Assembly: GCF_001646655.1 (NCBI RefSeq)
Contig: NZ_LPZN01000010.1
Coordinates: 1-51,580 of the forward strand
Reading direction: 5' to 3'
From: Rhodococcus gordoniae
Lineage (GTDB): Bacteria; Actinomycetota; Actinomycetes; Mycobacteriales; Mycobacteriaceae
Length of the DNA stretch: 51,580 nucleotides
Shown piece by piece: positions 131 through 20,699 of this stretch. Below the pieces are notes generated by a model, which saw only the letters and a program-made list of their open reading frames with translations, was not told the DNA's origin and did not search any database. Both the position numbers and the translations under genes were made by a program. Every line of letters begins with the position of its first letter. Within the stretch, counting starts at the first letter, position 1.

Positions 131-700
131 ATGGGTCGAAACGAGCCGGTGCGAAGTGTCTTCGGCGATTTCGAGCTGACCATGAACGAGTTGCGGGTGG
201 TGACGCAGTACGTGGCGGAGAGTGCGCAGGACGTGCTTCCGGTCTTCGAAGAAGCCGTTCCCCAGGACCGACGTCCTCGTGCTGCTCTCGATGCGGCCTG
301 GGAATTCGTCGGCGGTGCGAGACGGACGAGACTTCAGCGCGTCACTGCGTCGGATGCACACCGGGCAGCGAAGCAAGCGTCCACCGAATCGGTCTCTCTG
401 GCCGCCCGCTGTGCCGGCGACGCCGCCGCAGCCGCCTATCTGCACCCGATCGCGAGAGCCACCCAGGTCGGACACATTCTGCGGGCTGCTGCGAGTGCTG
501 CACGCATAGCCGAGCTCCGAGCAGATGGTGACCCGGCAGTCGGGAGCGCGATGATCGAGCAGGCACGCCGACGCGCGACCCCGGTACTGGTCGACGTACT
601 TTCGCGCTACCCGCTCGCGTCGACGTCGAGGACTCGCGTCGGGCACCTCATGAGGACCCTGGATCTCTCTTTGCGCAACGGGGGACCGCAGCAGCCGTAA
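131..700 (+). CDS. Imm-5-like putative immunity protein
   Basis: A 189-residue helical protein. From memory it matches an actinobacterial family annotated as putative immunity protein (Imm-5-like domain), often misnamed exonuclease SbcC. Recognisable family stretches are MNELRVVTQYVAESAQ near the N-terminus, RPRAALDAAWEF, DAHRAAK, DAAAAAYLHPIARATQVGHI and the C-terminal RRRATPVLVDVLSRYP. No signal peptide or membrane segment is visible. ATG 131 is chosen because the family begins a few residues before the ELTMNELR motif; ATG 182 is an alternative. No toxin gene is adjacent, so it is an orphan. The immunity role is inferred from the family name and is not shown by the sequence. Confidence 0.7.
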   Translation: MGRNEPVRSVFGDFELTMNELRVVTQYVAESAQDVLPVFEEAVPQDRRPRAALDAAWEFVGGARRTRLQRVTASDAHRAAKQASTESVSLAARCAGDAAAAAYLHPIARATQVGHILRAAASAARIAELRADGDPAVGSAMIEQARRRATPVLVDVLSRYPLASTSRTRVGHLMRTLDLSLRNGGPQQP

Positions 701-862
701 CTGGGCCCTCCACAATCCAGGTTGTAGTCGTGGCCTGACGCCGCCGGTTTCCGGCAAGGATCTGGCGAGGTAGTCGGTGAGGTCGCGGAATCCGAGAGCG
801 GAACCGCGAAGGTGGTCGAGCTGTCCGTTGATCGTGGCTTGTGAGGCGGTCGACCCCAGGAC
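701..862 (-). pseudogene. 3'-terminal remnant of an ISL3-type transposase
   Basis: Translating 835 down to 698 on the minus strand gives TINGQLDHLRGSALGFRDLT, then DYLARSLPETGGVRPRLQPG. This closely resembles the C-terminal end of actinobacterial ISL3-family transposases (typically INGRLEHLRGSALGFRNLTNYIARSLLETGG). The catalytic DDE part is absent: the frame runs directly into the 3' end of the aldo/keto reductase gene. The usual stop after the final proline-rich residues is lost, and the frame continues into the end of the immunity gene. This is the scar of an insertion sequence that has been almost completely deleted. Assignment to ISL3 rests on recall of the family C-terminus. Confidence 0.65.
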
Positions 863-864
863 AT

Positions 865-1737
865 TCAGCGGCTGACGTCGTCCAGTTCGGTCAGGTCCTC
901 ATGAGAGAGGGAGCGTCCCGCACCGGCGATGTTCTGGCGCAGGTGTGCCGTCGATGACGTGCCGGGGATGAGCAGGATGTTCGGTGATCGGTGCAGCAGC
1001 CAGGCCAGAGCGACGGACATCTGTGTCGCCTCCAGTCGAGCGGCGACCGCCGAGAGCGCCGAGGACTGAAGCGGTGTGAAGCCCCCGAGGGGGAAGAAGG
1101 GCACGTACGCGACGCCGTCGGTAGCGAGCCGGTCGATGAGCTTGTCGTCATGGCGGTGGGCGAGGTTGTACATGTTCTGCACGCACACGATCGGCGCGAT
1201 GCTCTGTGCTTCGGCGACCTGCTCCTCGGTGGCGTTGCTGATCCCGAGGTGGCGGATCAGGCCCTGCTGCTGGAGTTCGACGAGCGTCTCGAATGCCTCG
1301 GCGAGCGAGCCGGGTCGGGGACCTTCGGCGTTGCCGAGTCGGAGGTCGACCAGGTCGAGTACGTCGAGGCGGAGGGACTCGAGGTTGTCGTGGACCTGGC
1401 GGCGCAGATCTTCGGGCCGGCGGGCTGTAGGCCATCCGCCCTGTTCGTCGCGGGTCGCGCCCACCTTGGTCACGATGTGCAGCGACTCGGGATAGGGGTG
1501 CAGTGCCTCGCGGATCAACTCGTTGGTGACGTGCGGCCCGTAGGCGTCGCTGGTGTCGATGTGTGTGATGCCGAGGGCGACCGCTTCGCGCAGCACGGCC
1601 AGGGCACCCTCGCGATCGGCGGGCGGCCCCATGACCCCTGGCCCGGCCAGTTGCATGGCACCGTAGCCGAACCGGGTGACGGTCAGGTCACCCAGAGTCC
1701 AGGTGCCGCCGGGAAGAGAGGGGGAGGGTGTGCTCAT
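865..1737 (-). CDS. Aldo/keto reductase
   Basis: A 290-residue NAD(P)H-dependent (beta/alpha)8-barrel oxidoreductase of the aldo/keto reductase superfamily. Tetrad positions are D61 and Y66 (in DTSDAYGPH) and K91 (IVTKVG). The position normally held by histidine is arginine, R133 in DLVDLRLGN, as in a subclade of putative reductases. The C-terminal HLRQNIAGAG corresponds to the cofactor-binding RxxxN region. The start at 1737 (MSTPSPSLPGG) is chosen over an upstream in-frame start because the extra residues do not look like protein. It is transcribed divergently from an HxlR-type regulator at 1871, which probably controls it. The substrate is unknown. Confidence 0.85.
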   Translation of the reverse strand: MSTPSPSLPGGTWTLGDLTVTRFGYGAMQLAGPGVMGPPADREGALAVLREAVALGITHIDTSDAYGPHVTNELIREALHPYPESLHIVTKVGATRDEQGGWPTARRPEDLRRQVHDNLESLRLDVLDLVDLRLGNAEGPRPGSLAEAFETLVELQQQGLIRHLGISNATEEQVAEAQSIAPIVCVQNMYNLAHRHDDKLIDRLATDGVAYVPFFPLGGFTPLQSSALSAVAARLEATQMSVALAWLLHRSPNILLIPGTSSTAHLRQNIAGAGRSLSHEDLTELDDVSR

Positions 1738-1806
1738 CCTGTTGCCTTTCGTCGTGCACTCGGGGGGGTGGCGCCTGTTGCCTCCCTGTATCAGCATTGG
1801 GGAGAA

Positions 1807-1839
1807 ACTTCCTGTCGGGAAGTAGGCACTCGGGAGTGC
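1807..1839. promoter_or_regulatory. Two adjacent palindromes, candidate HxlR operators
   Basis: ACTTCC-N5-GGAAGT lies at 1807-1823 and GCACTC-GG-GAGTGC at 1826-1839, both perfect inverted repeats in the AKR/HxlR divergent promoter region. HxlR proteins bind short inverted repeats, often with ACTT/AAGT half-sites, so the first is the better operator candidate. Confidence 0.5.
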
Positions 1840-1870
1840 GTAACCCATCCATCGGTGAGAGGTGCGATCA

Positions 1871-2317
1871 GTGACGACGATGAAGGCGGCCCAGAAGAGG
1901 GCTCAGGCCAAGATGGAGTACAACGCGTTCCTGGCAGGGTGCCCCAGCCGGCAACTGCTCGACCGAATCTCGGACAAGTGGGTCGTCCTGATCCTGTGTG
2001 CGCTGGGCGGCGACAACAGCCCCGGCCGGCCCGGTGCAGCACACGAAGACGCTCCGAAGGCGATGCGTTACTCCGAGATCTCTCGTCTTCTGGCCGGGGT
2101 CAGCCAGAAGATGCTGACCCAGACGCTCCGCTCGCTGGAGCACGATGGTCTGCTCACCCGTACCGTGACGCCAACCGTCCCTGTCACCGTCTCCTACGAG
2201 CTGACCGACCTCGGCCTCTCGCTCCACCACATGACCCGCGGGCTCAGAAACTGGGCGCAGACACACATGGCCGAGGTTCTCGCGAACCGCGAGAACTACG
2301 ACGCTCGCACCCCCTGA
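1871..2317 (+). CDS. HxlR-family transcriptional regulator
   Basis: A 148-residue winged helix-turn-helix protein of the HxlR (DUF24) family. It has the N-terminal cysteine typical of many members (C in AGCPSRQLLDRISDKW), the KWVVLIL helix, the recognition region FSEISRLL-like RYSEISRLLAGVSQKML, and the wing TVSYELTDLGLSL. It is slightly long because of an insertion after LILCAL. GTG 1871 is chosen because GAGAGG at 1857-1862 sits 8 nt upstream; GTG 1862 and ATG 1880 are alternatives. It likely represses the divergent aldo/keto reductase in response to electrophile or aldehyde stress sensed by the cysteine. That link is inferred from position and family. Confidence 0.85.
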   Translation: MTTMKAAQKRAQAKMEYNAFLAGCPSRQLLDRISDKWVVLILCALGGDNSPGRPGAAHEDAPKAMRYSEISRLLAGVSQKMLTQTLRSLEHDGLLTRTVTPTVPVTVSYELTDLGLSLHHMTRGLRNWAQTHMAEVLANRENYDARTP

Positions 2318-2407
2318 CGGCTCACATCCAATCGTCCGACAGCTCTACATTCTCGGCCTACGCCCGCAACTGCGAAGAGCCCGTAACGGTCCGGCGAGCG
2401 AGCCGAC

Positions 2408-3760
2408 CTATCCGGGTGAGGGGGCCGGTGGAAGCGATGTCGTGCTCAACCAGGCCTCCCACAGCGACCGGAGCGAGGTCTCCGAGAAACGCGCGGCGAG
2501 ATCCTTGAACTGTGCCGTCGTCACATTGCCGTGTCGATGTTCCGCGGTCCACGTCCGCAGGAGGTCGAAGAAGTGCTCGTCGCCGAGGTGCACCCGCAGG
2601 GCGTGCAAGGTGAGGGCTCCGCGCTTGTAGATGCGGTCGTCGAACATGTCCTTCGGGCCCGGATCCTCGAGGAGGATGTCCTGAGGTTTGCGGGCCAGCC
2701 CTCTGTGGGCGTCGAGAGCATGCGCGTGCGCGGACCTGCCGCCGGAGTTCTCAGACCACAACCATTCCGCGTAGCAGGCGAATCCCTCGTGGAGCCAGAT
2801 GTCGCACCAGCGGTACAGGGTGAGACTGTTGCCGAACCACTGGTGCGCCAATTCGTGTGCGACGAGCCGCTCTTCGCGGCCCGTGCCGTCGCAGAAGTTT
2901 GCGCCGAAGGTCGACAGTCCCTGAGCCTCGATGGGGATCTCGAGGTCGTCGTCGGTGACCAGTGCGGTGTAGTGCGCGAACGGATACGGGCCGAACAGGC
3001 GCGTGAAGACCTCGAGCATCTCGGTCTGGCGCGCGAAATCACGGTCGAACGACGCGCGCAGGCGAGGTGGATGGATCCCGTACTGCGGCACCGGATCCGA
3101 CGCCAGTGTGCGTACCTCGTAATGGCCGGTCTGCACTGTGGCCAGATAGGTCGCCATCGGTTCGGGTTGCTCGTAGACCCAGGTGGTGCGACTGGCCTTG
3201 GTGGTCTTGTGCACGAGCGTTCCGTTCGCGACCGCGACGAACGGAGCGTCGGTGGTGACGGAGATTCGGTAGGTGGCCTTCGAACCGGGATGGTCGTCGC
3301 AGGGGAACCAGGTGGGCGCACCGTTCGGCTGGCTCGCGACGAGCGACCCCTCGTCGAGTTCCTCCCAGCCGACCTCACCCCACATGGTCCGCAACGGGGC
3401 GGGGGTACCCGAGTACTGCACGCCGAAGACGAGCACGGACCCGGCGGGGAGTTTCTCGGCCGGGGTGACGGTGAGCTTGCCGTCGCGGTGGACGAACTTG
3501 GCGGGTCGTCGCCCGTTGACGGTCACCTTGGCGACGCGCATCGTCTGCGCAAGATCGAGCGAGTACTTGGCGCGCACATCCGTCGTCGTGGCGATGATCT
3601 TCGCCCGGCCGTCCAACCTGTTGGACACGACCTTGTAGGTCAGATCCAGCTCGTAGCGCGAGACGCGGAAACCGCGGTTCCCGCTCTCGGGCAGGTAGGG
3701 ATCGAGGGGACGATCGGCGGCGACGGGCGCGACGGGCTTGGCGGCCTTGATGGGTTTCAC
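2408..3760 (-). CDS. M1-family zinc metallopeptidase (aminopeptidase)
   Basis: A 450-residue M1 peptidase. The zinc signature is HELAHQWFGN followed by the downstream glutamate in WLHEGFACYAEW. The N-terminal beta domain and gluzincin domain are present, but there is no long C-terminal helical domain, so it is a short M1 form. No signal peptide is obvious. The GTG start at 3760 overlaps the TGA of the upstream Pls-like synthetase (GTGA, 3757-3760), implying translational coupling. Upstream residues in the same frame are arginine-rich and non-protein-like. Zinc aminopeptidases that degrade epsilon-poly-lysine are known in poly-lysine producers. A role in trimming or detoxifying the partner's product is therefore a reasonable inference, not a demonstrated one. 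Confidence 0.88.
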   Translation of the reverse strand: MKPIKAAKPVAPVAADRPLDPYLPESGNRGFRVSRYELDLTYKVVSNRLDGRAKIIATTTDVRAKYSLDLAQTMRVAKVTVNGRRPAKFVHRDGKLTVTPAEKLPAGSVLVFGVQYSGTPAPLRTMWGEVGWEELDEGSLVASQPNGAPTWFPCDDHPGSKATYRISVTTDAPFVAVANGTLVHKTTKASRTTWVYEQPEPMATYLATVQTGHYEVRTLASDPVPQYGIHPPRLRASFDRDFARQTEMLEVFTRLFGPYPFAHYTALVTDDDLEIPIEAQGLSTFGANFCDGTGREERLVAHELAHQWFGNSLTLYRWCDIWLHEGFACYAEWLWSENSGGRSAHAHALDAHRGLARKPQDILLEDPGPKDMFDDRIYKRGALTLHALRVHLGDEHFFDLLRTWTAEHRHGNVTTAQFKDLAARFSETSLRSLWEAWLSTTSLPPAPSPG

Positions 3761-6700
3761 CGCGGTGCCCAGCTGTTCGGTGTGGTCCACGGCGCGATGG
3801 GGTTGCCCTGCCAGCGGGTGGACTGCGGGACGACGTCGCCGCGCATCACCAGCGAGGCCGGTCCGACGGTGGCACCGTCGCCGATGCCCGAGGCAGGCAA
3901 CGCGACGCATTGGGGGCCGAGCGTGGCGCCGGCGCCGAGGGTCACGGTGTCCATGGACATGATCCGATCATGGAACAGGTGGGTCTGTACAACGCAACCG
4001 CGTTCGACGGTCGCGCCGTCGCCCAGGGACACCAGGTCGGCCTCGGGCAACCAGTAGCTCTCGCACCACACCCCGCGGCCGATCTTCGATCCCAGTGCCC
4101 GCAACCACAGGTTCATCACGGCGGTGCCGGTCGCGGCCCGTGCGAACCACGGTGCCGCGACGGTCTCGACGAAGGTGTCGGAGACCTCGTTGCGCCACAC
4201 GAACGAACTCCACAACGGATGCTCCACACGCCCGATCCGTCCCACCACGAGCCATTTCGCGGCGACCGTCACCAGGCACGCCACGGCTCCGGCGCTCATG
4301 AGCACGATGCCACCGAGCAGTGCCGCGACGGCGTATCCCCAGTGCACGGCGAGAGTGTTCAGGGCGAACAGCACACCGAGGCCGATGCCGTAGGTGACGA
4401 TCATGGGCACGAGCCGGAAGGTCTCCACGGCGCCGCGCGCGACCTTCAGTTTCAGCGGGGGTTCGAAGGTGCGGCTCGTGTCGCTGTCGCCGCTCGCGCG
4501 CCGCAGGCGAACCGGGGGACTGCCCAGCCACGACGATCCGGACTTCGCCTTCTCCGGAGCCGCGGAGAGCACCGCGACGAGTCCGTGCTTCGGTACCCGC
4601 CGTCCCGGTGCCGCCATGCCCGAGTTGCCGAGGAAGGCGCGCTTCCCGACCTTCGCGTGCGAGATGTACAGCCAGCCGCCGCCGAGTTCGTAGGAGGCGA
4701 CCATCGTGTCGTCGGCGAGGAACGCACCGTCGGCGACCTTGGTGAACTTGGGAACCATCAGCACGGTCGACGCCTCGACGTCCTTGCCGATGTCGGCGCC
4801 GAGCAGCCGGAGCCAGATCGGGGTCAGCATCGACGCGTAGAGCGGGAAGAGGAAGGTGCGCGACGAATCCATGAGGCGCTCGGTGAACCACACCTGCCAG
4901 CCCACGCGGCTGCGCACCGGATGCCAGCCTTCCGTCATGCCGATCGCGAGCAGGCGCACCGAGAGCAGGGTGAGCAGGGCGAAGACGAACATCGTCAGCA
5001 GTGCCGCGACGGGGAGCATCGCCAGGGAATGCACCACGGCGTCGGAGACGGTGGGGGTGTCGTGCACCCACCACACGAGCAGCGCGACGCCCGCGGCGAT
5101 CGACACGATGGGCAGGCCGCCGAGCAGGATCGACGACAGGGCGTAGACCGGAACCCATCTGTTACCCCGCGGCGGTGTCCCGGCGGGCCAGGGCCGGTCG
5201 GCCTTGCCGACCTTGCGCGCAGGCGATCCTGCCCAGCTCTGCCCGGCCTTCACTCGGCCGAACACGGCCGATCCTGCTTCCACCTCCGCGTTCTTACCGA
5301 TACGCGCACCCGGGGCGAGGAACGACCGGGCGCCGACAGTGGCACCGGCACCGATCCTGATACTCCCGATGTGGACGACGTCGCCGTCCACCCAGTAGCC
5401 GCCGAGATCCACTTCCGGCTCGACGGAACATCCGTCGCCGAGCTCGAGGAGACCGGTGACCGGCGGAAGGCTGTGCAGGTCGACGCCACGTCCGACCTTC
5501 GCTCCCAGGGCACGCGCGTACTGCCGCATCCAGGGAGCACTGGAGATGTTCGTCGCGTTCACGGCCTCGGACAACCGCAGGGCCGTCCACAGCCTGAGGT
5601 GGACACCGCCTCCGCGGGGGTAGCTCCCCGCCTTCACACCGCGCAGCAGCAGACGTGAACCGGCGACGGAGATCGCCATACGCCCGACGGGAGAAAGGAA
5701 CAGCAGGACACCGAGCGCGACCCACCACCACGACAGGGTGACGGTCCACGGCACGTCGACGACGAGCGCGATGACGTTGTTCAGTATCGCCAGCCAGGTC
5801 ACCCACTGCAGTCCGGTGAGGGTGGTGAGGACGCCGGTCGCCGCGATCTGGGCGAACTGGGCGAGGCGGGGCACCGGGGTGACCTCTCGTGGTGCCGCAG
5901 CTTCCGTCGGTGCGAGTTCGTCGAGATGGACCGCGAGCGATCCGAGCCGGGGATGGTCGTACAGCTCCGCGACCGTCATCTCCGGATACCTGCTGCGCAG
6001 CGCCGTCACGAGCTGTGCCGCTGCGAGGGAGCCACCGCCGAGTTCGAAGAAGTCGTCGTCGACGCCCTCGATCCGGGCACCGAGGATGTCGGTCCACAAT
6101 TCGGCGACCCATTCGGCGGTGGGATCGAGTCCGAGCGCCTCCACCGAGTCGGCGTCGGCGCCCGGCAGCGGCCACGGCAGGGCGTTGCGGTCGACCTTGC
6201 CGGATGTGCGGGTGGGGAGTTCGTCGACGAGCGCGAGTCGCGGAACGAGCGCGGCGGGGAGTTGCTCGGACAGCAGGTCGTGGGCGGACGCGATGTCGAA
6301 GTCCGGATCGGTGGAGGCGATGTACCCCACGAGGATCGGGTGTCCCGCAGCGGTCCTGCGCACCGCGCACGCACCGCCGGCCACGCCGGGCAGGTTCTGC
6401 AGCGCGTTGTCGACCTCGCCGAGTTCGATGCGGCGGCCACCGATCTTGACCTGGTCGTCGGCGCGCCCCTGGAACAGCAGTCCCTCGCGGTCGAGGGTGA
6501 CGAGATCGCCGCTGCGATAGGCGCGCTCCCAGCCGAGTGTGGGCATCGGAGCGTACTTCTCGGCATCCTTCGCCGGATCGAGATAGCGCGCGAGGCCGAC
6601 ACCGCCGATGACGAGTTCGCCGGTCGCGCCCTCCTCGACGGGGTTGCCGTCGGCGTCCACCACGGCGAGATCCCAGCCGTCGAGCGGCAGCCCGATGCGG

Positions 6701-7662
6701 ACCGGTCCGGTGCCGTCCATCAGCGAGGCGCAGGCGACGACTGTGGCCTCGGTGGGGCCGTAGGTGTTCCACACCTCCCGTCCCGGAACGGCGAGACGCT
6801 CCACGAGATCGGGTGGGCAGGCCTCACCGCCGAAGATGAGCAGGCGCACCGCCTCGAGTGCTTCGGCCGGCCACATCGCCGCGAGCGTGGGCACGGTGGA
6901 GACGACGGTGATGTTGCGCGAGACGAGCCACGGTCCGAGATCCATGCCGGAGCGGACGAGCGCGCGGGGGGCCGGAACCAGGCAGGCGCCGTGCCGCCAG
7001 GCGAGCCACATCTCCTCGCACGATGCGTCGAAGGCCACCGACAGGCCGGCCAGGACCCGGTCGCCGGGGCCGAGTGGCGCTGCCCGGCAGAACATCCGTG
7101 CTTCCGCGTCGACGAAGGCCGCCGCATTGCGGTGCGTGACGGCGACACCCTTCGGTGTCCCGGTCGAACCCGAGGTGAAGATGATCCACGCATCGTCGTC
7201 GAGGTTCGGCCCCCGCACGGCCGGGCTGCCCGGCGGGACGGCCGTACCCGGCCCGATGCCCTCGTCGGTGACGATGGCGGTGACCTGTGCTTCCGAGAAC
7301 ACGAGTTCGGCGCGCTCGTCGGGGTCGTCCGCGTCGACGGGCACGTATGCGGCGCCCGCAGCGAGAATCGAGAGAATCGTCACATACAGATCGGTGCGCC
7401 CGGACGTCATGCGCACGCCGACCCTGTCGCCGGCACCGACACCCGCGTCGTTCAACGCGTAGGCGCCGGCGATCACCGCCTCGACGAGTTCGGCGTATTC
7501 GAGGACGGTGGTGCCGTCGTCGAGGGCAGGGGCGTCCGGATGTGCCTCGGCGGTGCTCCGCAGCAGGTCGACGAGGGTGCGTGCAGGCGGAGCGTGCGAC
7601 GCGCGGAGGAATTCGTCCGGAATGGGGGACCGGCCGACGGGGATCGAGGATATGGCTGGCAA
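3757..7662 (-). CDS. Pls/PosA-type membrane non-ribosomal peptide synthetase
   Basis: A 1301-residue single-module NRPS with the layout of epsilon-poly-L-lysine synthetase. The adenylation domain spans roughly 25-510, with A3 FTSGSTGTPKG at 162, A4 FDASCEEMW with D212, and A10 SGKVDR with K489. A carrier domain has phosphopantetheine serine S545 in LGGGS. Three membrane-helix pairs follow (about 610-670, 834-905, 1083-1133), each ahead of a soluble hexapeptide-repeat-like domain (about 715-820, 940-1040, 1190-1295). Aligned by eye to GrsA, the specificity residues read D-A-E-S-I-G-T-V-V-K, close to the lysine code of bacitracin synthetase. There is no thioesterase or canonical condensation domain. 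The TTG start follows a GAAGGA ribosome-binding site. The gene is coupled to the M1 peptidase. The family is solid; the lysine product is predicted. Confidence 0.88.
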   Translation of the reverse strand: MPAISSIPVGRSPIPDEFLRASHAPPARTLVDLLRSTAEAHPDAPALDDGTTVLEYAELVEAVIAGAYALNDAGVGAGDRVGVRMTSGRTDLYVTILSILAAGAAYVPVDADDPDERAELVFSEAQVTAIVTDEGIGPGTAVPPGSPAVRGPNLDDDAWIIFTSGSTGTPKGVAVTHRNAAAFVDAEARMFCRAAPLGPGDRVLAGLSVAFDASCEEMWLAWRHGACLVPAPRALVRSGMDLGPWLVSRNITVVSTVPTLAAMWPAEALEAVRLLIFGGEACPPDLVERLAVPGREVWNTYGPTEATVVACASLMDGTGPVRIGLPLDGWDLAVVDADGNPVEEGATGELVIGGVGLARYLDPAKDAEKYAPMPTLGWERAYRSGDLVTLDREGLLFQGRADDQVKIGGRRIELGEVDNALQNLPGVAGGACAVRRTAAGHPILVGYIASTDPDFDIASAHDLLSEQLPAALVPRLALVDELPTRTSGKVDRNALPWPLPGADADSVEALGLDPTAEWVAELWTDILGARIEGVDDDFFELGGGSLAAAQLVTALRSRYPEMTVAELYDHPRLGSLAVHLDELAPTEAAAPREVTPVPRLAQFAQIAATGVLTTLTGLQWVTWLAILNNVIALVVDVPWTVTLSWWWVALGVLLFLSPVGRMAISVAGSRLLLRGVKAGSYPRGGGVHLRLWTALRLSEAVNATNISSAPWMRQYARALGAKVGRGVDLHSLPPVTGLLELGDGCSVEPEVDLGGYWVDGDVVHIGSIRIGAGATVGARSFLAPGARIGKNAEVEAGSAVFGRVKAGQSWAGSPARKVGKADRPWPAGTPPRGNRWVPVYALSSILLGGLPIVSIAAGVALLVWWVHDTPTVSDAVVHSLAMLPVAALLTMFVFALLTLLSVRLLAIGMTEGWHPVRSRVGWQVWFTERLMDSSRTFLFPLYASMLTPIWLRLLGADIGKDVEASTVLMVPKFTKVADGAFLADDTMVASYELGGGWLYISHAKVGKRAFLGNSGMAAPGRRVPKHGLVAVLSAAPEKAKSGSSWLGSPPVRLRRASGDSDTSRTFEPPLKLKVARGAVETFRLVPMIVTYGIGLGVLFALNTLAVHWGYAVAALLGGIVLMSAGAVACLVTVAAKWLVVGRIGRVEHPLWSSFVWRNEVSDTFVETVAAPWFARAATGTAVMNLWLRALGSKIGRGVWCESYWLPEADLVSLGDGATVERGCVVQTHLFHDRIMSMDTVTLGAGATLGPQCVALPASGIGDGATVGPASLVMRGDVVPQSTRWQGNPIAPWTTPNSWAPR

Positions 7663-7769
7663 CTCCGCGGGTCCTTCTGCTCGATGGATCCTCCGGTTAT
7701 CTCACGTCCGGGTGGACAACAGGTGAACGTTCGGTGCGCGGAACGTGTGTCGGCATCGTGCGATACGGG

Positions 7770-7798
7770 TTGACACGGCTCGATCGTCCTGTCATTGT
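7770..7798 (+). promoter_or_regulatory. Promoter of the SAM-IV riboswitch transcript
   Basis: A perfect -35 TTGACA (7770-7775) and a -10-like CATTGT (7793-7798) are separated by 17 bp. Transcription would begin about 7805, at the 5' edge of the riboswitch. Confidence 0.6.
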
Positions 7799-7806
7799 CT
7801 TCGCCA

Positions 7807-7925
7807 GGTCATGAGTACCAGCGTCAAGCCCCGGCTCGCTGGTCGGCAACCCTCCAACCGCGGTGGGGTGCTCCGGGTGACGACCGGGCCGTGAATCCAC
7901 CACCGGACACGGCAAGCGCGGACTC
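7807..7925 (+). ncRNA. SAM-IV riboswitch
   Basis: The stretch beginning GGTCATGAGTACCAGCGTC, with core segments GGTCGGCAACCCTCCAACC and GCGGTGGGGTGCTCCGGGTG, matches the SAM-IV (actinobacterial S-adenosylmethionine) aptamer, including the conserved core and the P1 partner GACGACC. The pseudoknot arm CACGGCAAGCGCGG follows near 7906-7921. SAM-IV elements regulate sulfur-metabolism genes in actinomycetes. Here the element precedes a cysteine-desulfurase-like gene starting 70 nt downstream. The 3' boundary is approximate. Confidence 0.85.
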
Positions 7926-7966
7926 CGCCGGCGACGAGAACTCTCCGTCGTAGGCGTCACCGGCGG

Positions 7967-7987
7967 GTCCCTGAGTACACGAGGGAT
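7967..7987 (+). promoter_or_regulatory. Shine-Dalgarno-sequestering hairpin below the riboswitch
   Basis: GTCCCT (7967-7972) can pair with AGGGAT (7982-7987), which contains the ribosome-binding site of the gene starting at 7993. This would give the SAM-IV element a translational output. The alternative pairing with the aptamer was not modelled. Confidence 0.5.
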
Positions 7988-7992
7988 TTGTC

Positions 7993-9306
7993 ATGACTGT
8001 TGTAGCCTCCACCACCTGCATTGCTCCGTTCGCCACCGTGTCCGGCTGTGACTCGCAGGTTCCGCTCGTCCAGGGTGGCACCTGCACCTACGCGAACTTC
8101 GACTACGCGGCGAGCGCACCGGCACTGTCCGCCGTCACCGACCGCCTCACGGAACTGCTGCCCTTCTACGCGAGCGTGCACCGCGGTGCCGGATACGCCT
8201 CGCGGATCAGCACCACCGCCTACGAGGACGCTCGCACCTCCGTGTCGCGCTTCGTCGGCGCGGACGACGACCAGGTCGTCGTCTTCACGCGCAACACCAC
8301 CGATTCGCTGAACCTGCTTGCGAGTGCCGTGCCCGGCGATGTCGTCGTGCTCGACATCGAACACCACGCGAATCTGCTGCCGTGGAAGAACTCCCGCATC
8401 GTCGAGGCGGCAGATACCGTCTCGGAGACGGTGTGGCGCCTCGCAGTCGAACTCCAGCGCGCCCCCGCGGCCCTGCTCGCCGTCACCGGTGCCTCCAACG
8501 TCACCGGCGAGGTGCTGCCCATCGCAGAGCTCGCCGAACTCGCCCACGCCTCCGGCGCGCGGATCCTCGTCGACGGCGCGCAGCTCGTGCCCCACCGCCG
8601 CGTCGACCTCGCGTCGCTCGGCGTGGACTACCTCGCGTTCTCCGGTCACAAGCTGTACGCGCCGTTCGGTGCGGGAGCGCTCGTCGGCCGACGCGACTGG
8701 CTCGACGCCGCCGAGCCGTACCTCGCCGGAGGCGGTGCGGTGCGCGAGGTACGCCTCGACCACACCGAATGGGCCTGCGCCCCTGCGCGTCACGAGGCCG
8801 GCACCCCCAACGTGCTCGGTGTCGCCGCTCTCGCCGCCGCATGCGATGCGCTCGCCGGTTTCGACTCCGACGCGGTCACCCGCCACGAGGAGGCCCTGTG
8901 CTCCCTGCTCGTCGACGGCCTGGACGCCATCGGCGGAGTGGAAGTGCTTCGGCTGTGGGACGATTCGGCCGACAGCGTCGGAATCGTCACTTTCACGATC
9001 GAGGGCTACGAGCCCGGTCACGTCGCGTCCTATCTGTCCGCAGAGCACGGCATCGGCGTCCGTGACGGACGTTTCTGCGCCCACCCGCTGCTCGCGCGGG
9101 TCGGTCGCGCCGGCGGTGCCGTCCGGGCGTCGCTCGGGCTCGGCAGCTCGTCCGATGACGTCGAACGGCTCCTCGGGGCGCTGCGTTCGCTGGTCGAGAA
9201 CGGACCGTCGTGGGTGCATGCGAAGACCGACGGCGTGTGGAACCCCTCGCCGGAGACGCGGCCCGGCCTCGGAGCGGCCGACGCCGACGCATCTCCGTGC
9301 GTCTAG
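7993..9306 (+). CDS. Class V aminotransferase, cysteine-desulfurase-like
   Basis: A 437-residue PLP-dependent enzyme of the aminotransferase class V (SufS/CsdA-like) fold. The PLP lysine is K220 in SGHKLYAPFGAG. RNTTDSLNL, EHHANLLPW and DGAQLVPHRRVD are the conserved cofactor and active-site segments. C362 in RDGRFCAHPLL aligns with the catalytic cysteine loop of group II cysteine desulfurases, so sulfur mobilisation from cysteine (or a C-S lyase reaction) is likely. No suf or isc genes are nearby. Expression should respond to S-adenosylmethionine through the upstream SAM-IV element. ATG 7993 follows GAGGGA at a good distance. The real substrate (cysteine, cystathionine or a selenium compound) cannot be decided from sequence. 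Confidence 0.85.
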   Translation: MTVVASTTCIAPFATVSGCDSQVPLVQGGTCTYANFDYAASAPALSAVTDRLTELLPFYASVHRGAGYASRISTTAYEDARTSVSRFVGADDDQVVVFTRNTTDSLNLLASAVPGDVVVLDIEHHANLLPWKNSRIVEAADTVSETVWRLAVELQRAPAALLAVTGASNVTGEVLPIAELAELAHASGARILVDGAQLVPHRRVDLASLGVDYLAFSGHKLYAPFGAGALVGRRDWLDAAEPYLAGGGAVREVRLDHTEWACAPARHEAGTPNVLGVAALAAACDALAGFDSDAVTRHEEALCSLLVDGLDAIGGVEVLRLWDDSADSVGIVTFTIEGYEPGHVASYLSAEHGIGVRDGRFCAHPLLARVGRAGGAVRASLGLGSSSDDVERLLGALRSLVENGPSWVHAKTDGVWNPSPETRPGLGAADADASPCV

Positions 9307-9309
9307 CGG

Positions 9310-9338
9310 TCGACAATTCCCCACAGGGTCAGTAGGGT
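9310..9338 (+). promoter_or_regulatory. Leaderless promoter of the first cysteine leader peptide
   Basis: TCGACA (9310-9315), 17 bp, then TAGGGT (9333-9338), then 7 nt to ATG 9346. The predicted transcript starts at or next to the A of the start codon. Confidence 0.65.
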
Positions 9339-9345
9339 AATTCGC

Positions 9346-9435
9346 ATGGAACGGACGAGGGCGATCGCCGCGGCACGCTGGTGCCGTCGCCATGTCGACC
9401 TCTGCCGTACGGCATCGGGAATCTGTTCGGACTGA
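9346..9435 (+). CDS. Cysteine-type attenuation leader peptide (29 residues)
   Basis: The 29-residue product ends RRHVDLCRTASGICSD. It matches the conserved actinobacterial putative leader peptide with the RRHVDLCR motif that precedes sulfur-assimilation genes and is thought to sense cysteine availability by attenuation. It contains three cysteines and appears to be translated from a leaderless transcript. It stops 79 nt before the flavoprotein-like gene at 9515, the presumed target. The region in between presumably holds the alternative RNA structures, which were not modelled. Confidence 0.85.
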   Translation: MERTRAIAAARWCRRHVDLCRTASGICSD

Positions 9436-9514
9436 AGGTCTTCTCCCTCGAAGTCTTCCGGCTCACAGGCCGATTTCTCCGTGCCGCTCCGCGGCCCGTA
9501 CCGAGAGGCATCCC

Positions 9515-10147
9515 ATGCCCGTCGCATCCACCGTCACCCCTGTATCCGCAGATCCGGCCACCGCAGACCCGGCCGTCGTCGAGTCCGCCACCATCCGGGC
9601 GTTGCGTATCGCCGTCGAGCTCGCCGGTCACTCCGGACCCGACTATTGGGCCGACCTGACCCTGGGGCGTGCCGGCGATCCGCCGCTCGACCTCAGCGCC
9701 GATGCACCCAACGTCGTGCGGGTGCGTGCCGCCGACCTGCGTGAGGCCGGAAAGCTGCGCGACCGCATCCGTGCGGAGGCCGCCGAGGAGGGCCGCGAGC
9801 CCGATTCGGTCACCGTGCTCGTCGACGTCGAGGTCGTCCTCGCGTCCGATGCCCGCACCGCCCGTACCCGACGCACCCGTCCGGAAGCCACCCGCGGGGA
9901 GGCCGACACGTTGTCGTACGTCGGAACGCCGCACGGTCTCGCCGGGCTGATCGCCGACATCCACGCCGTGCAGGTCGCCGACGGCGTCACGTTGATCCCG
10001 CTCGCCGCGCCGTTCACCGTCGAGTATCTCGTCGACGGAACGCTGCCGTGGTTGGCGTCGCGCGGCCTCATCGAGGTCTCGCCGACCGTCGTCGAGGTCC
10101 TGCGCCGGTTCGGCGAGGGCGCCCAGGAATCCGTGCGCGCTTCCTGA
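9515..10147 (+). CDS. Half-length luciferase-type flavin monooxygenase-like protein
   Basis: A 210-residue protein. Its second half resembles the C-terminal part of NtaA/SnaA/DszA-type FMN-dependent monooxygenases: REPDSVTVLVDVEVVLASDA, then GTPHGLAGLIADIHAVQVAD and the closing LPWLASRGL. Full family members are 350-450 residues. The N-terminal half of the barrel, with most FMN contacts, is missing, yet the frame is intact with its own ribosome-binding site (GAGAGG) and ATG. It may be a partner or regulatory subunit of a two-component desulfurising oxygenase, or a degenerate relative. Position behind a cysteine leader peptide and next to a SAM-IV-controlled gene supports a sulfur-metabolism role. 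Function is otherwise unknown. Confidence 0.75.
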   Translation: MPVASTVTPVSADPATADPAVVESATIRALRIAVELAGHSGPDYWADLTLGRAGDPPLDLSADAPNVVRVRAADLREAGKLRDRIRAEAAEEGREPDSVTVLVDVEVVLASDARTARTRRTRPEATRGEADTLSYVGTPHGLAGLIADIHAVQVADGVTLIPLAAPFTVEYLVDGTLPWLASRGLIEVSPTVVEVLRRFGEGAQESVRAS

Positions 10148-12442: not shown

Positions 12443-12934
12443 TCAGTGCCCGCCGTTGTTCTTCAGACGCTCGACCGACGCGGTCACCTCGGCCTCGGCC
12501 TCGGCGCGACCGACCCAGTCGGCGGCCTCGACGTGCTTGCCCGGCTCGAGGTCCTTGTAGTGGACGAAGAAGTGCTTGATCGCGTCGAGCTCGAACTGCG
12601 AGACGTCGCTGATGTCCTGGACGTGATCCCAGCGCGGGTCGCCGGCCGGGACGGCCAGGATCTTGTCGTCGCCCCCGGCCTCGTCGACCATCTTGAACAT
12701 GCCGATCGGGCGGGCGTCGACCAGAACGCCGGGGAACACCGACTCGGGCAGCAGCACCATGCAGTCGAGCGGATCGCCGTCCTCACCGAGGGTGTTCTCG
12801 ATGTAGCCGTAGTCGGCGGGGTAGCCGAACGAGGTGTACAGGTAACGATCGAGCTTGACGCGTCCGGTCTCGTGATCGACCTCGTACTTGTTCCGCTGTC
12901 CCTTGGGGATCTCGATGGTGACCTCGAACTCCAC
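12443..12934 (-). CDS. ppa: Inorganic pyrophosphatase
   Basis: A 163-residue family I soluble pyrophosphatase, which hydrolyses PPi to drive biosynthetic reactions in the cytosol. Signature segments are [29 protein letters not shown], the metal-binding [10 protein letters not shown] (D-x-D-P-x-D) and [10 protein letters not shown]. The GTG at 12934 is chosen over in-frame upstream codons because mycobacterial Ppa starts at the equivalent of [10 protein letters not shown] and has about 162 residues. GTGAGG lies just upstream as a ribosome-binding site. It is divergent from dacB. Confidence 0.95.
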
Positions 12935-13132
12935 GCCTTGCCTCACTTCGTCGGTATTTTCCGGCGGATACGACATCCGTATCTGCGGTGATGGTCCGCA
13001 GAGAGGATAACGGTCGCGGCGCTAGGCTGGAGGTGCAGGTACCGGGGCCCCGAGTGCGTCACAACAGTGTGCGGCCGGCAGCGGGAAGTGCGGGTAGCTG
13101 GTCGACCAGTGTGTGCAGGATGCAGCGGAGGC

Positions 13133-14539
13133 GTGTTGACGGGGCAGGGCGGCAACAAGAAGCAGGGTTCACTGGCAACCAGGCGACGGCGGAACATGAA
13201 GATCCTGTTCGGGATCTGGGGAGCGGGTTTCCTCGCTCTGGTCGTCGGTGGAGCCTTCGCGATCTACGACGTGCGGACGTCCGCCGGCGCGGTCGTACTT
13301 CCCGCACCGGCACCGGTGGTCGCGACCCCCGCGGTCGCCGCGGTCTCACCCGACGCTCCGACGCCCGACCCGACTTCGCTGGCGTCGGCACTCGACCGGG
13401 CCGTGAACGACCCGGGGCTCGGTGATTTCGCCGGATCGATCAGCGACCCCACGACCGGCACGGTGCTGTGGTCGAAGGATCCCGACCGCGCCTTGATCCC
13501 GGCCTCCACGACGAAGATTCTCACCGCTGCGGCTGCCATGCTCGTGCTGCCGTCCGATCATCGGATCACCACGCGCGTCGTCGAAGGTTCGAAGCCGGGA
13601 GAGATCGTCCTGATCGCCGGGGGCGACCCCACCCTGTCGGCACTGCCGCCCGGCGAGGAGAGCTTCTATCCGGGTGGTCCTCGCATCGCCGACCTCGCCG
13701 AACAGATCCGCCGCGGCGGCACGACCGTCGAGACCGTCCTCGTCGACACGAGCCTGTACAGCGGGGATCCGCTCGCGCCGGGCTGGTTTCCCCAGGACGT
13801 CGGCGACGGTTACGTCGCACCCATCGAACCGGTGATGCTCGACGGCGGCCGGTTGCGCCCGCTCGAAGACGAATCGTCTCGCAGCGCTACGCCCGCCCTG
13901 GACGCCGGTCGTGCACTGGCGACGGCGCTCGGTGCCGACCCCGCGCGGGTAGCGCTCGGATCCGCCTCACCCGGTGCGGCGCCCATGGCGTCGGTCCAGT
14001 CGGCGCCACTCACTGTGCGTCTCGGTCAGATGCTGCGCCGATCCGACAACGTCCTCGCGGAGACCATCGGACGGGAGGTCGCCGTCGCGACGGGCAACGA
14101 GCACTCGTTCGAGGGCACCACGAAGGCGGTGACCGGTACCCTGCAGCAAGCGGGTCTGGACGTCACCGGTGTGACGTTGCGCGACGTCAGCGGACTCTCG
14201 GTCGAGAACCGGATCCCCGCTCGTACGCTCGATCGCGTGATCTCCGAGGCGGCCGGACCGAACAGGACGGAGCTGCGGCCCATGCTCGACTATCTTCCCG
14301 TCGCCGGAGCGACCGGCACGCTCGCCGACCGCTACGGCACCACGACCCGTGCCGGGGCCGGCTGGGTGCGGGCGAAGACCGGCACTCTGACCGAGGTCAA
14401 CGGACTCACCGGGTACGTCGTCGACTCCGACGGTCGTGTGCTGTCGTTCGCTCTGCTCTCCAACGGCAGGTCGCCGGGCGAGGCCCGGCCCGCCCTCGAC
14501 GCCGTGGCGTCGGTGCTTCGCGAGTGCGGCTGCCGATGA
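13133..14539 (+). CDS. dacB: D-alanyl-D-alanine carboxypeptidase/endopeptidase (peptidase S13)
   Basis: A 468-residue penicillin-binding protein of class C (PBP4/DacB) that trims peptidoglycan stem peptides outside the membrane. The active-site motifs are SxxK at S125-K128 (ASTTKIL), SxN at S304-N306 (RRSDNVLAE) and KTG at K415 (AKTGTLTEVNGLTGY). An N-terminal signal anchor (FGIWGAGFLALVVGGAFAIY) follows an arginine run. The GTG start at 13133 has GGAGG just upstream but with short spacing; TTG 13136 and ATG 13196 are alternatives. It is the first gene of a dacB-zincin-tilS-hpt unit; its stop overlaps the next start (ATGA, 14536-14539). A candidate -10 TAGGCT lies at 13023. Confidence 0.92.
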   Translation: MLTGQGGNKKQGSLATRRRRNMKILFGIWGAGFLALVVGGAFAIYDVRTSAGAVVLPAPAPVVATPAVAAVSPDAPTPDPTSLASALDRAVNDPGLGDFAGSISDPTTGTVLWSKDPDRALIPASTTKILTAAAAMLVLPSDHRITTRVVEGSKPGEIVLIAGGDPTLSALPPGEESFYPGGPRIADLAEQIRRGGTTVETVLVDTSLYSGDPLAPGWFPQDVGDGYVAPIEPVMLDGGRLRPLEDESSRSATPALDAGRALATALGADPARVALGSASPGAAPMASVQSAPLTVRLGQMLRRSDNVLAETIGREVAVATGNEHSFEGTTKAVTGTLQQAGLDVTGVTLRDVSGLSVENRIPARTLDRVISEAAGPNRTELRPMLDYLPVAGATGTLADRYGTTTRAGAGWVRAKTGTLTEVNGLTGYVVDSDGRVLSFALLSNGRSPGEARPALDAVASVLRECGCR

Positions 14540-15582
14540 CCGGCAAGGAGCGGGCTCTCGGCGACGCGATCGACTGGTCGTTCGCGGCCGGGGTCGGCGT
14601 GCGCCTCACCCGCTCCGAACCTGCCATGTCGCAGTACACGCGCGACGCGGTGCAGGACGAACTGTTCTCGGCTGCCGCACGTGCCGAGGGCCCCGTGCGC
14701 GAGCACACGCGACTCGACGACGGAACCGAGCCGCCGCCGGCGCGGGTCGTCGACCGGCCCGGATGGGTGCGCGCGGCCGCGGCGTCCATGGCCGACCTCA
14801 CTGCGGCGCCGGGTGCGGGTCCGGGTGGCAGCCGACGCTGGGTGGGCAAACCGGCGGGCGCGCAGGCGGGTGCCATGCTGGCGTACCTGTCCTCGGCGGT
14901 GCTCGGACAATACGATCCGTTCTCCCGCTCGTTGCTGCTCGTCGCGCCCAATGTCGTCGCGGTCGAACGTGTCCTGAAGGTGCCGCCCACCGATTTCCGG
15001 CTGTGGGTGTGCCTGCACGAGGTGACCCACCGCGTGCAGTTCTCGCAGGCACCGTGGATGGCGGAACTGATGCGTGATGCTGCCGCCGATCTCGCCACCG
15101 CCGTCGAGGAACCGATGGGCGACGTCGCGACCCGCGTGGTGTCGGCGGTGAAGGATCTGCGCACTCCGGGCGAGAAGCCCATGTCGGAGCGGGGGATGCT
15201 CGGCGTCGTGCGTGCTCTGCAGGCACAATCGCAACGCGAATCGTTCGATCGGATCCTCGCGCTGGGAACTCTCCTCGAAGGTCACGCCGACCATGTGATG
15301 GACGGTGTCGGCCCGGCCGTGGTCCCGTCGGTCGCACGGATCCGGCGGGCGTTCGACAACCGCCGGCACCGCAACAGCAGCCCTGTCCATCGCCTGATCC
15401 GGCTCGTCCTCGGCATGGACGCCAAGATGGCGCAGTACGTGCACGGCAAGAAGTTCGTCGACGCCGTCGTCGCGAAGGTCGGCATGGACGACTTCAACGC
15501 GGTGTGGTCCGGACCGGATGCCCTGCCCACCCTGGCGGAGATCGACCACCCCGACGCGTGGATCGCGCGGGTGCTGGGCTGA
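14536..15582 (+). CDS. Zinc-dependent metalloprotease-like protein (Zincin_2/DUF2342)
   Basis: A 348-residue protein of the actinobacterial DUF2342/Zincin_2 family (Rv3626c-like). The putative zinc motif HEVTH is at 161-165 (CLHEVTHRVQF), and the downstream GHADHVMDGVG may give the third ligand. The C-terminal half is helical (KMAQYVHGKKFVDAVV). No signal peptide is visible, so the protein is cytosolic unless it follows the cell-wall gene dacB functionally. The start overlaps the dacB stop by ATGA. Proteolytic activity has not been established for the family to my knowledge. Confidence 0.88.
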   Translation: MTGKERALGDAIDWSFAAGVGVRLTRSEPAMSQYTRDAVQDELFSAAARAEGPVREHTRLDDGTEPPPARVVDRPGWVRAAAASMADLTAAPGAGPGGSRRWVGKPAGAQAGAMLAYLSSAVLGQYDPFSRSLLLVAPNVVAVERVLKVPPTDFRLWVCLHEVTHRVQFSQAPWMAELMRDAAADLATAVEEPMGDVATRVVSAVKDLRTPGEKPMSERGMLGVVRALQAQSQRESFDRILALGTLLEGHADHVMDGVGPAVVPSVARIRRAFDNRRHRNSSPVHRLIRLVLGMDAKMAQYVHGKKFVDAVVAKVGMDDFNAVWSGPDALPTLAEIDHPDAWIARVLG

Positions 15583-15584
15583 TC

Positions 15585-16607
15585 GTGGCATCCCCGTCGG
15601 CCGATCGCCCGCTGCTGCCCGAGACCCCGGCGATCCACGAAGTGCGACTCGCAGTGCGGGCCTGGCTGGGCGCGCACCCCGTCGGCGAGGTGACCGTCGC
15701 GCTGTCCGGCGGAGCCGATTCCGCAGCCCTGACCGCCGCCGCCGTGGCGGAAGCGGACGCGGTGCACGCCGTCGTCGTCGACCATCGCCTGCAGTCCGGC
15801 TCCGAGGTCGTCGCTGCCCGCGCCGCGGAGTTCGCCCGGGCCCGCGGCTGCGCGACCGTCACGGTGGCCGCCGTGGACGTCACCGGCGGGGGAGGACTCG
15901 AGGCCGCCGCGCGTGCGGCCCGTTACCGGGCGCTCGACGAGCACCGCGACGAACGGCCGGTGCTGCTCGGGCACACCCTCGACGACCAGGCCGAGACGGT
16001 GTTGCTCGGCCTCGGCCGCGGCTCGGGACTGCGTTCGATCCGGGGCATGGCGTCCTACGAGCCGCCGTGGGGCAGACCGCTGCTCGGCGTGCGCCGCAGC
16101 ACGACCCGCCGGGCGTGCGACGAACTCGGCTACCGCCCGTACGAGGATCCGCACAACACGGACGACCGGTTCACGCGCGTGCGATTGCGCCGCGAGGTCC
16201 TGCCGCTGCTCGAGGACGTGCTCGGTGGGGGCGTCGCCGAAGCTCTCGCGCGCACGGCCGGGCAACTGCAGGACGACGGCCACGCCCTCGATGTCCGGGC
16301 AGTGGAACTGCTCACGGCGGCGCGCCACGACGACGACCTGCTCGACACCGCTGTGCTCGCCGCGGCTCCCGCCGCAGTACGGCGGCGCGCACTCCGGTCG
16401 TGGCTGATCGATCACACCGCCACACCGAACGAGACGATGCTGCGGGCGGTCGACGACCTGGTAGTGGCGTGGCGTGGGCAGGGGCCGGTGGCGGTCGGGC
16501 GGGGCCCGCAGCCGGGGACGAGGTTGGTGGTGTCGCGTCGGCGTGGCACGCTTGCCGTGGAGTACGTCGACCGGGCGAAGCCCCGGGCGACCGGCAGCAG
16601 AAGGTAG
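15585..16607 (+). CDS. tilS: tRNA(Ile)-lysidine synthetase
   Basis: A 340-residue PP-loop ATPase that converts C34 of the tRNA-Ile(CAU) anticodon to lysidine, making the tRNA read AUA. The PP-loop is ALSGGADSAAL near the N-terminus. GHTLDDQAETVLLGLGRGSG and YEDPHNTDDRFTRVRLR are diagnostic of TilS. The C-terminal substrate-binding domain is short, as in mycobacterial homologues. GTG 15585 begins 2 nt after the upstream stop. It sits in the conserved dacB-zincin-tilS-hpt order. Confidence 0.93.
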   Translation: MASPSADRPLLPETPAIHEVRLAVRAWLGAHPVGEVTVALSGGADSAALTAAAVAEADAVHAVVVDHRLQSGSEVVAARAAEFARARGCATVTVAAVDVTGGGGLEAAARAARYRALDEHRDERPVLLGHTLDDQAETVLLGLGRGSGLRSIRGMASYEPPWGRPLLGVRRSTTRRACDELGYRPYEDPHNTDDRFTRVRLRREVLPLLEDVLGGGVAEALARTAGQLQDDGHALDVRAVELLTAARHDDDLLDTAVLAAAPAAVRRRALRSWLIDHTATPNETMLRAVDDLVVAWRGQGPVAVGRGPQPGTRLVVSRRRGTLAVEYVDRAKPRATGSRR

Positions 16608-16619
16608 GGAAGGACCCCG

Positions 16620-17174
16620 GTGTACGAGAACGACATAGCGTCGGTGCTGATCTCCGAGGAACAGATCAAGGAGCGGACCGCAGAACTGGCGCAGTCGATC
16701 GCCGAGCGTTACCCCGTGGGTGCGCCCGAAGGTGATCTGCTGCTCATCGGGGTGCTCAAGGGCGCCATCTTCTTCATGACCGACTTCGCGCGCGCTCTGC
16801 CGATCCCGACGCAGATGGAGTTCATGGCCGTCAGCTCGTACGGGTCGTCGACGTCGTCCTCGGGTGTGGTGCGCATCCTCAAGGACCTCGACAAGGACAT
16901 CGCCGGTCGCCACGTTCTCATCGTGGAGGACATCATCGACTCGGGCCTGACGCTGTCGTGGCTGCTCAAGAACCTGTCGTCGCGCAACCCCGCGTCGCTC
17001 GAGGTCGTCACGCTGCTGCGCAAGCCGGAAGCCGTCAAGATCGACGTCGAGGTCAAGGACGTCGGATTCGACATCCCGGACGAGTTCGTCGTCGGCTACG
17101 GCCTCGACTACGACGAGCGCTACCGCGACCTGCCCTACATCGGCACGCTGGATCCCAAGGTCTACAGCAGCTGA
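16620..17174 (+). CDS. hpt: Hypoxanthine phosphoribosyltransferase
   Basis: A 184-residue type I phosphoribosyltransferase salvaging hypoxanthine and guanine to IMP and GMP. The PRPP-binding motif is [32 protein letters not shown] and [10 protein letters not shown] (the flexible catalytic loop) are conserved. The GTG start follows AAGGA. The tilS-hpt-ftsH linkage is conserved across bacteria. Confidence 0.95.
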
Positions 17175-17304
17175 CCTCCGGTCGAGCCGGGGCGTGAGGT
17201 CCCCGGCCCGGGGAACTCCGGTTCCGTCCCGATCGTTGTCGAGTACGACGTCTTCCCGGTATCGGCTCCGGTCGGTGCCGGGGCGACTGCTCGTTGCAAC
17301 GCGG

Positions 17305-17310
17305 TAACCT
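17305..17310 (+). promoter_or_regulatory. Candidate ftsH -10 (TAACCT)
   Basis: TAACCT lies in the 254-nt gap before ftsH and would give a leader of about 110 nt. No good -35 is present. The rest of the gap shows no gene. Confidence 0.35.
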
Positions 17311-17428
17311 TGCGTTGCCTGGTCAGTGACCGTCGCGGCGCATGGCGGCCACACCGGGCGCGAAGCGCCGCGACTGCGAGACCCCGACGAACTCGATCGA
17401 AAGGACCGGCCGCTCGGGCCGAACCTGT

Positions 17429-19963: not shown

Positions 19964-20048
19964 TCCGTGCCGGCGAGCCGGTACCGGGCGTGCATCGGGC
20001 CGGTCGGGTCCGATGGAGACGAGTGAGTGAAGAGTGGAGGGCGAGCGG

Positions 20049-20699
20049 GTGTCGGTGAACCACCTGAAGTCGGATACGGGTTCCGACCCGGAGGATGTGA
20101 CGACTCACGCGTTGAGCGTGGACGCGGGACGCACATTCGACCAGGCCCGAGCCGAAGCGGCCGTGCGCGAACTGCTGATCGCAGTGGGTGAGGATCCGGA
20201 TCGTGAGGGTCTGCGCGACACCCCCGCCCGTGTGGCCCGCGCCTACCGGGAGGTGTTCGGAGGACTGTTCACGGATCCGGACGAGGTCCTCGACACGACC
20301 TTCGACGAAGGTCATCAGGAACTCGTCCTCGTGCGCGACATCCCGATGTACTCGACGTGCGAGCACCACCTCGTGTCGTTCCACGGGGTCGCCCACGTGG
20401 GGTACATCCCGGGTCCGACGGGCCGCGTGACGGGGTTGTCGAAGCTGGCGCGTGTCGTGGACCTCTACGCCAAGCGGCCGCAGGTCCAGGAACGCCTGAC
20501 CAGTCAGGTCGCCGATGCGATGATGCGCAAGTTGCAGCCGCGCGGCGTGATCGTCGTGGTCGAGGCCGAGCATCTGTGCATGGCCATGCGCGGCATCCGC
20601 AAGCCCGGGGCGAGCACCACCACCTCCGCTGTGCGCGGCTTGTTCCAGACCAGTTCGGCGTCGCGTGCCGAGGCCCTGGACCTGATTCTGCGCCGGTGA
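20049..20699 (+). CDS. folE: GTP cyclohydrolase I
   Basis: A 216-residue enzyme making 7,8-dihydroneopterin triphosphate from GTP, the first step of folate synthesis. The zinc ligands are in [12 protein letters not shown] and [11 protein letters not shown]. The QxxQERLT-type segment [13 protein letters not shown] is also present. The GTG at 20049 is chosen because GGAGGG (20036-20041) lies 7 nt upstream; GTG 20034 and 20055 are in frame. It is first in a chain of overlapping genes: its stop shares GTGA with folP. Confidence 0.95.

Follow-up and report, generated by a model that had tools for sequence, protein, structure and literature searches.

The stretch of DNA analyzed here (termed the window; 51,580 nucleotides in length) carries on its reverse strand a synthetase gene and a peptidase gene that, judging from sequence comparison and with a probability of roughly nine in ten (0.92), represent an orthologue of the actinobacterial pls-pldII operon, whose products would make and hydrolyze epsilon-poly-L-lysine (epsilon-PL). 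The synthetase and peptidase constitute a real observation, none of which is due to chance, and the pair is an instance of an already known kind of system, not a new operon. The features discussed below are located in Table 1.

Table 1. Features of the synthetase-peptidase gene pair, in window coordinates.
Feature	Position	Strand	Basis
M1 metallopeptidase, PldII-like, 450 aa	2408..3760	-	PF01433, PF17900; GTG start
GTGA overlap	3757..3760	-	peptidase GTG start over synthetase TGA stop (sequence)
Pls/PosA-family epsilon-poly-L-lysine synthetase (probable)	3757..7662	-	1301 aa; TIGR02353 739 bits; 7wew A-domain match E 2.4e-195; pocket equal to that of 7wew
Pls/PosA terminal domain	3796..5850	-	TIGR02353 in own genome, hydropathy, profile matches; six predicted membrane helices plus C1, C2 and C3
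C3 motif QTHLFHDR, candidate bond-forming site	3964..3987	-	residues 1226-1233; motif kept in 10/10 aligned members
Carrier (T) domain	5926..6114	-	residues 517-579; PF00550 E 2.8e-12; GGGS phosphopantetheine site
Adenylation (A) domain	6157..7632	-	residues 11-502 (extent of 7wew alignment); pocket DAESIGTVVK

In the synthetase, A and T domains precede three C-terminal units (termed C1, C2 and C3), each of which is predicted to comprise a membrane-helix pair and a beta-helix. This arrangement--A and T domains followed by three repeats of a helix pair and a soluble domain, 1301 residues in all--had been proposed in a first-pass annotation of the window and is borne out by the reading frame, by Pfam, by the NCBIfam Pls/PosA model TIGR02353 and by hydropathy. 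Pfam places AMP-binding at residues 35-359, PP-binding at residues 517-579 (within which GGGSLAA occurs at residue 542) and Hexapep at residues 768-800; at an E-value threshold of 0.001 it detects no condensation or thioesterase domain and, beyond the domains named, only Hexapep_2, which falls below its own cut-off. TIGR02353 covers residues 605-1289 and scores 739.2 bits, far above its cut-off of 423.1. The predicted start codon is TTG, with AGAAGGA located 9 nt 5' of it; a scan of positions 1900-8200 for promoters and terminators, which says little for such an organism, found neither. Among the nearest relatives the best is R. zopfii, at 85%.

The substrate pocket provides the most direct link to a characterized enzyme. 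By sequence, the best solved structure for the synthetase is 7wew, the A domain of the Streptomyces albulus epsilon-PL synthetase, with which 319 of 488 residues (65%) are identical and all ten pocket residues are shared. The latter correspond to synthetase residues 212, 213, 216, 255, 276, 278, 300, 308, 309 and 489, which stand at the NRPS code positions (defined in PheA numbering). The code D-A-E-S-I-G-T-V-V-K, previously read by eye, was exact: the alignment to 7wew returns the same ten residues, and their identity to the 7wew pocket rules out that the code was a chance reading. The same pocket is common to all 80 of the related loci that were fetched.

The C-terminal half of the synthetase contains three hydrophobic clusters (residues 617-669, 836-912 and 1081-1144), each broad enough for a helix pair as judged by hydropathy, which involves no topology model; a further hydrophobic stretch above the same threshold (residues 91-111) lies within the A domain. 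A terminal-domain profile was built from 38 sequences, the window's plus those of 37 out of 79 usable loci. It hits beta-helix acyltransferases and gamma-carbonic anhydrases, in C1 (best E 1.4e-6) and in C3 (best E 5.5e-5); among the best 60 of 98 matches none falls within C2. Computed models of PosA likewise contain three left-handed beta-helices over six membrane helices, for which, according to their authors, experimental support is still needed (PMC10522769). Because the PosA region has been modeled in this way, the predicted beta-helix is a trait of the Pls/PosA family and no departure from it. The tandem domains, whose dissimilarity to those of Pls would have spoken against the first-pass annotation, are alike by sequence.

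Of the three units, C3 alone carries the sequence QTHLFHDR, all eight residues of which are invariant in the 38 aligned sequences and three of which (H1228, H1231 and D1232) are kept in at least 78 of 81 sequences. In the form QTHLF[H/E]DR the motif occurs in 10 of 10 aligned family members, including those from Streptomyces, Kitasatospora and Acinetobacter and a divergent Rhodococcus enzyme; both an Acinetobacter baumannii homologue (32% identical) and the divergent Rhodococcus plasmid enzyme (33%) have QTHLFEDR. The signature of C1 is absent from both of these divergent enzymes, and that of C2 is partly kept in them (F-x-A-D in both, GGW in one). The ten aligned sequences thereby suggest that C3 may form the isopeptide bond; within it, H1228 would be the best candidate for a catalytic residue because the second histidine is a glutamate in the two divergent enzymes. 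A literature search did not find the string QTHLF, which shows only that this string is unprinted in the collection searched.

The peptidase contains HELAH at residue 302 and IEAQG at residue 277; the M1 zinc site, HExxH-18-E, is present in all 81 peptidases compared (those of the window, of Kitasatospora and of 79 loci). Among solved structures, the putative zinc metalloproteases 6a8z and 6iff match the peptidase best (E about 1e-48). In the list of open reading frames its frame runs upstream to position 3910, inside the synthetase, and the likely start is the coupled GTG at position 3760. Both the GTGA overlap and the M1 domains agree with the first-pass annotation, in which this overlap joined the synthetase to an aminopeptidase, and the overlap points to translational coupling of the two genes. 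Neither a strongly hydrophobic segment (best 19-residue mean 1.1) nor an obvious signal is seen in the peptidase, whereas PldII of S. albulus is reported to occur outside the membrane (PMC9223678), a discrepancy that leaves some doubt about where the window's enzyme would act.

The same gene order recurs among relatives. Of 80 related loci, 79 have an M1 peptidase 3' of pls, the exception (L070) being one in which the contig ends with the synthetase gene. In 73 of these 79 loci the peptidase alignment begins at most 150 bases past the pls stop, or before it; in 55 of the 79, the pls stop is overlapped by a start codon. The six loci outside the 73, in which 0.6 to 2.1 kb separates synthetase and peptidase, are L022, L023, L024, L030, L031 and L062, from Tsukamurella, Williamsia and a contig labeled Acidobacteriaceae; by eye, the intervening open frames in L023 (+ strand) and L031 (- strand) look like membrane proteins. 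A Kitasatospora relative has an annotated Pls followed by an M1 metallopeptidase that is 51% identical to the window's, and a Streptomyces relative has an M1 frame directly downstream that is 40% identical. At one locus (L086, positions 478-5724, - strand, in genome G037) synthetase and peptidase form a single frame of 1748 residues with a short linker, which is either a natural fusion or an assembly error; in a congener (G007) they occupy separate frames. A literature search that paired peptidase M1 with poly-l-lysine synthetase by those names found nothing; the literature name is PldII.

In the mechanism proposed here, the A domain would activate L-lysine with ATP, as the identity of its pocket suggests, and the T domain would hold the lysine as a thioester. 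The membrane-bound domain with its three beta-helices would then repeatedly link the epsilon-amine of one lysine to the carboxyl of another--with the condensing site probably housed in the C3 beta-helix, sole carrier of the conserved motif--and the epsilon-PL product would exit the cell, both linkage and export being known for Pls. The coupled M1 peptidase would hydrolyze the polymer, as is reported for S. albulus PldII, probably for self-protection or turnover. The first-pass annotation had envisaged a membrane synthetase for a lysine-like homopolymer or isopeptide with its own processing peptidase: the lysine homopolymer and the coupled peptidase are supported by the family model, the pocket and the overlap. 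As to processing, the degradation of the polymer by PldII makes maturation a less likely purpose than self-protection or turnover.

The closest described parallel is S. albulus, in which pldII sits behind pls with translational coupling between the two, and PldII is described as the major epsilon-PL degrading enzyme (PMC9223678). The two systems are alike in the A-domain pocket and in the coupled downstream peptidase gene; the direct comparison covers the A domain only, PldII being compared by description. Whether PldII sets chain length is contested even in S. albulus: strains in which PLD and pldII were inactivated still made 25-35-mers (earlier work cited in PMC9223678), and the repression strains of PMC9223678 made longer chains. 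A pls-peptidase operon has also been reported from Corynebacterium variabile (PMC8117764), a different genus from the window's, with the same architecture by description; its Pls is 51% identical to Streptomyces Pls, and the pockets of its group are reported to be identical or highly similar. That Pls made epsilon-PL of 26-35 residues when expressed in S. coelicolor; in the same source, no epsilon-PL was detectable from C. variabile itself or from C. glutamicum expressing its gene, and the operon may therefore be silent or make something else. With the S. albulus coupling and the C. variabile operon already in print, the peptidase coupling is not as remarkable as it first appeared.

Within the same bacterial group as the window there are predicted epsilon-PL synthetases, which, as here, are predictions only: an NAPAA epsilon-PL cluster in all five R. 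erythropolis strains compared (PMC10819586), nfa3790 of N. farcinica (PMC4035055) and Rhodococcus Pls homologues among the matches of PMC8117764. More distantly, PosA of A. baumannii, which makes delta-poly-L-ornithine, belongs to the same family; the A. baumannii homologue shares the C3 motif, but is only about 32% identical, has another pocket and has no M1 match within 4 kb. Two Rhodococcus plasmid loci were also seen. On plasmid pROB01 of R. opacus B4 (L096, positions 3980-7858) there is a Pls that is 72% identical and has the same pocket, but the 4 kb to each side of it contain no M1 match; behind the gene for the divergent plasmid Pls/PosA enzyme (L098, positions 3947-10025) come a BPL-N-domain gene and a heparan-alpha-glucosaminide N-acetyltransferase-domain gene.

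The window's GTDB family comprises Rhodococcus, Nocardia and mycobacteria, among others. In a survey of 151 genomes of this family, a synthetase was counted if it scored over the model cut-off and a peptidase at E 1e-30; synthetase matches below the cut-off were ignored because 13 of 14 control genomes match the model at a loose threshold (one of the 14 is over the cut-off). By these measures the synthetase is present in 137 genomes and absent from 14, and the peptidase is present in 138: 137 genomes have both, 13 have neither, one has the peptidase only (G026) and none has the synthetase only (Fisher p 7e-18, a statistic that ignores shared ancestry). Of the 137, 128 have one synthetase copy over the cut-off; the other nine have a second copy that also passes it but scores lower. 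The absences are spread over six genera (g3, g4, g5, g12, g14 and g29), and two of the 13 genomes that lack both genes are incomplete assemblies (81 and 85%). G026 retains the peptidase (L088, positions 2746-4065), on a contig that also bears ppa about 4 kb off; the 8 kb that were read contain no match to pls.

The starts of the two genes lie at most 6.5 kb apart in 122 of the 137 genomes. Among the remaining 15, the separation is 10.7 kb in two and more than 600 kb, within a single contig, in five; in the other eight the genes fall on separate contigs, which is no proof of distance in a draft assembly. Nine of these 15 fall in a single genus with small genomes (g3); the peptidase matches found there reach only 46-50% identity and may be paralogues. 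A sample drawn from the whole class gave a match at E 1e-200 in 33 of 197 genomes, of which 11 are from the same family and 22 from others; the two samples used different criteria and allow no exact comparison. A literature search on family-wide conservation found none by title; partial statements exist (on five R. erythropolis strains and on Nocardia Pls homologues).

The start of the synthetase gene lies about 5 kb from the housekeeping gene ppa. The surroundings are of a housekeeping kind: positions 12443-20699 of the window encode a pyrophosphatase (ppa), D-Ala-D-Ala carboxypeptidase, TilS, a phosphoribosyltransferase, FtsH and GTP cyclohydrolase I (folE). Across the family, ppa is within 40 kb of the synthetase in 82 of the 137 genomes. 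These neighbors weakly argue against a recently acquired island. ARAGORN detects no tRNA in the window. Divergent from the synthetase is a class-V aminotransferase gene (positions 7993-9306), with a match in 24 of 80 related loci.

The existence within the Pls/PosA family of enzymes for polymers of other diamino acids lends some credence to the idea that the window's enzyme activates ornithine, diaminobutyrate or beta-lysine and makes a different cationic isopeptide. This is very unlikely, however, given that its ten pocket residues all equal those of S. albulus Pls, whereas the pockets of the A. baumannii homologue (DMEHNGTVSK, which fits the pocket described for PosA) and of the divergent Rhodococcus enzyme (DFEYLGTVTK) differ, and that Pls has an alanine where PosA has Met218 (PMC10522769). 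Scarcely credible is the suggestion, made in the first-pass annotation, that having hexapeptide beta-helices as soluble domains sets the chemistry apart from that of Pls: matches to beta-helix proteins do exist for C1 and C3, but the published PosA model has the same beta-helices (PMC10522769), and TIGR02353, which defines both Pls and PosA, spans the whole terminal region.

A further alternative is compatible, as to mechanism, with the pls-pldII reading and concerns what the polymer is for: the same chemistry might yield a lysine isopeptide that serves in the envelope, in stress physiology or as a lysine store, that the peptidase recycles and that is not mainly a secreted antimicrobial. The presence of pls in 137 of 151 family genomes, usually as a single copy, its frequent proximity to ppa and the C. 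variabile culture in which no polymer was detected (PMC8117764) speak for such a role. It is nevertheless doubtful, inasmuch as retention within one family can be plain inheritance--and class-wide only 33 of 197 genomes match, 22 of them from other families--and 14 of the 151 family genomes live without pls.

The biological significance of such polycations has been called unclear (PMC9606270). As an orthologue of pls-pldII, the pair described here is a plain one, at best one more source of epsilon-PL genes; what is added is the count of downstream peptidases, the near-perfect co-occurrence across the family and the motif confined to C3. More speculatively, pls-pldII could be an ancestral core module of the window's family with a general physiological role, such as an envelope-bound polycation or a lysine store turned over by the peptidase, of which the antimicrobial use in Streptomyces would be a specialization; the near-perfect co-occurrence, even where the genes lie apart, might then mark a make-and-break cycle. 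Because one large family retains the synthetase near-universally and pairs it with a hydrolase, the significance of such polycations can be tested by simple gene removals.
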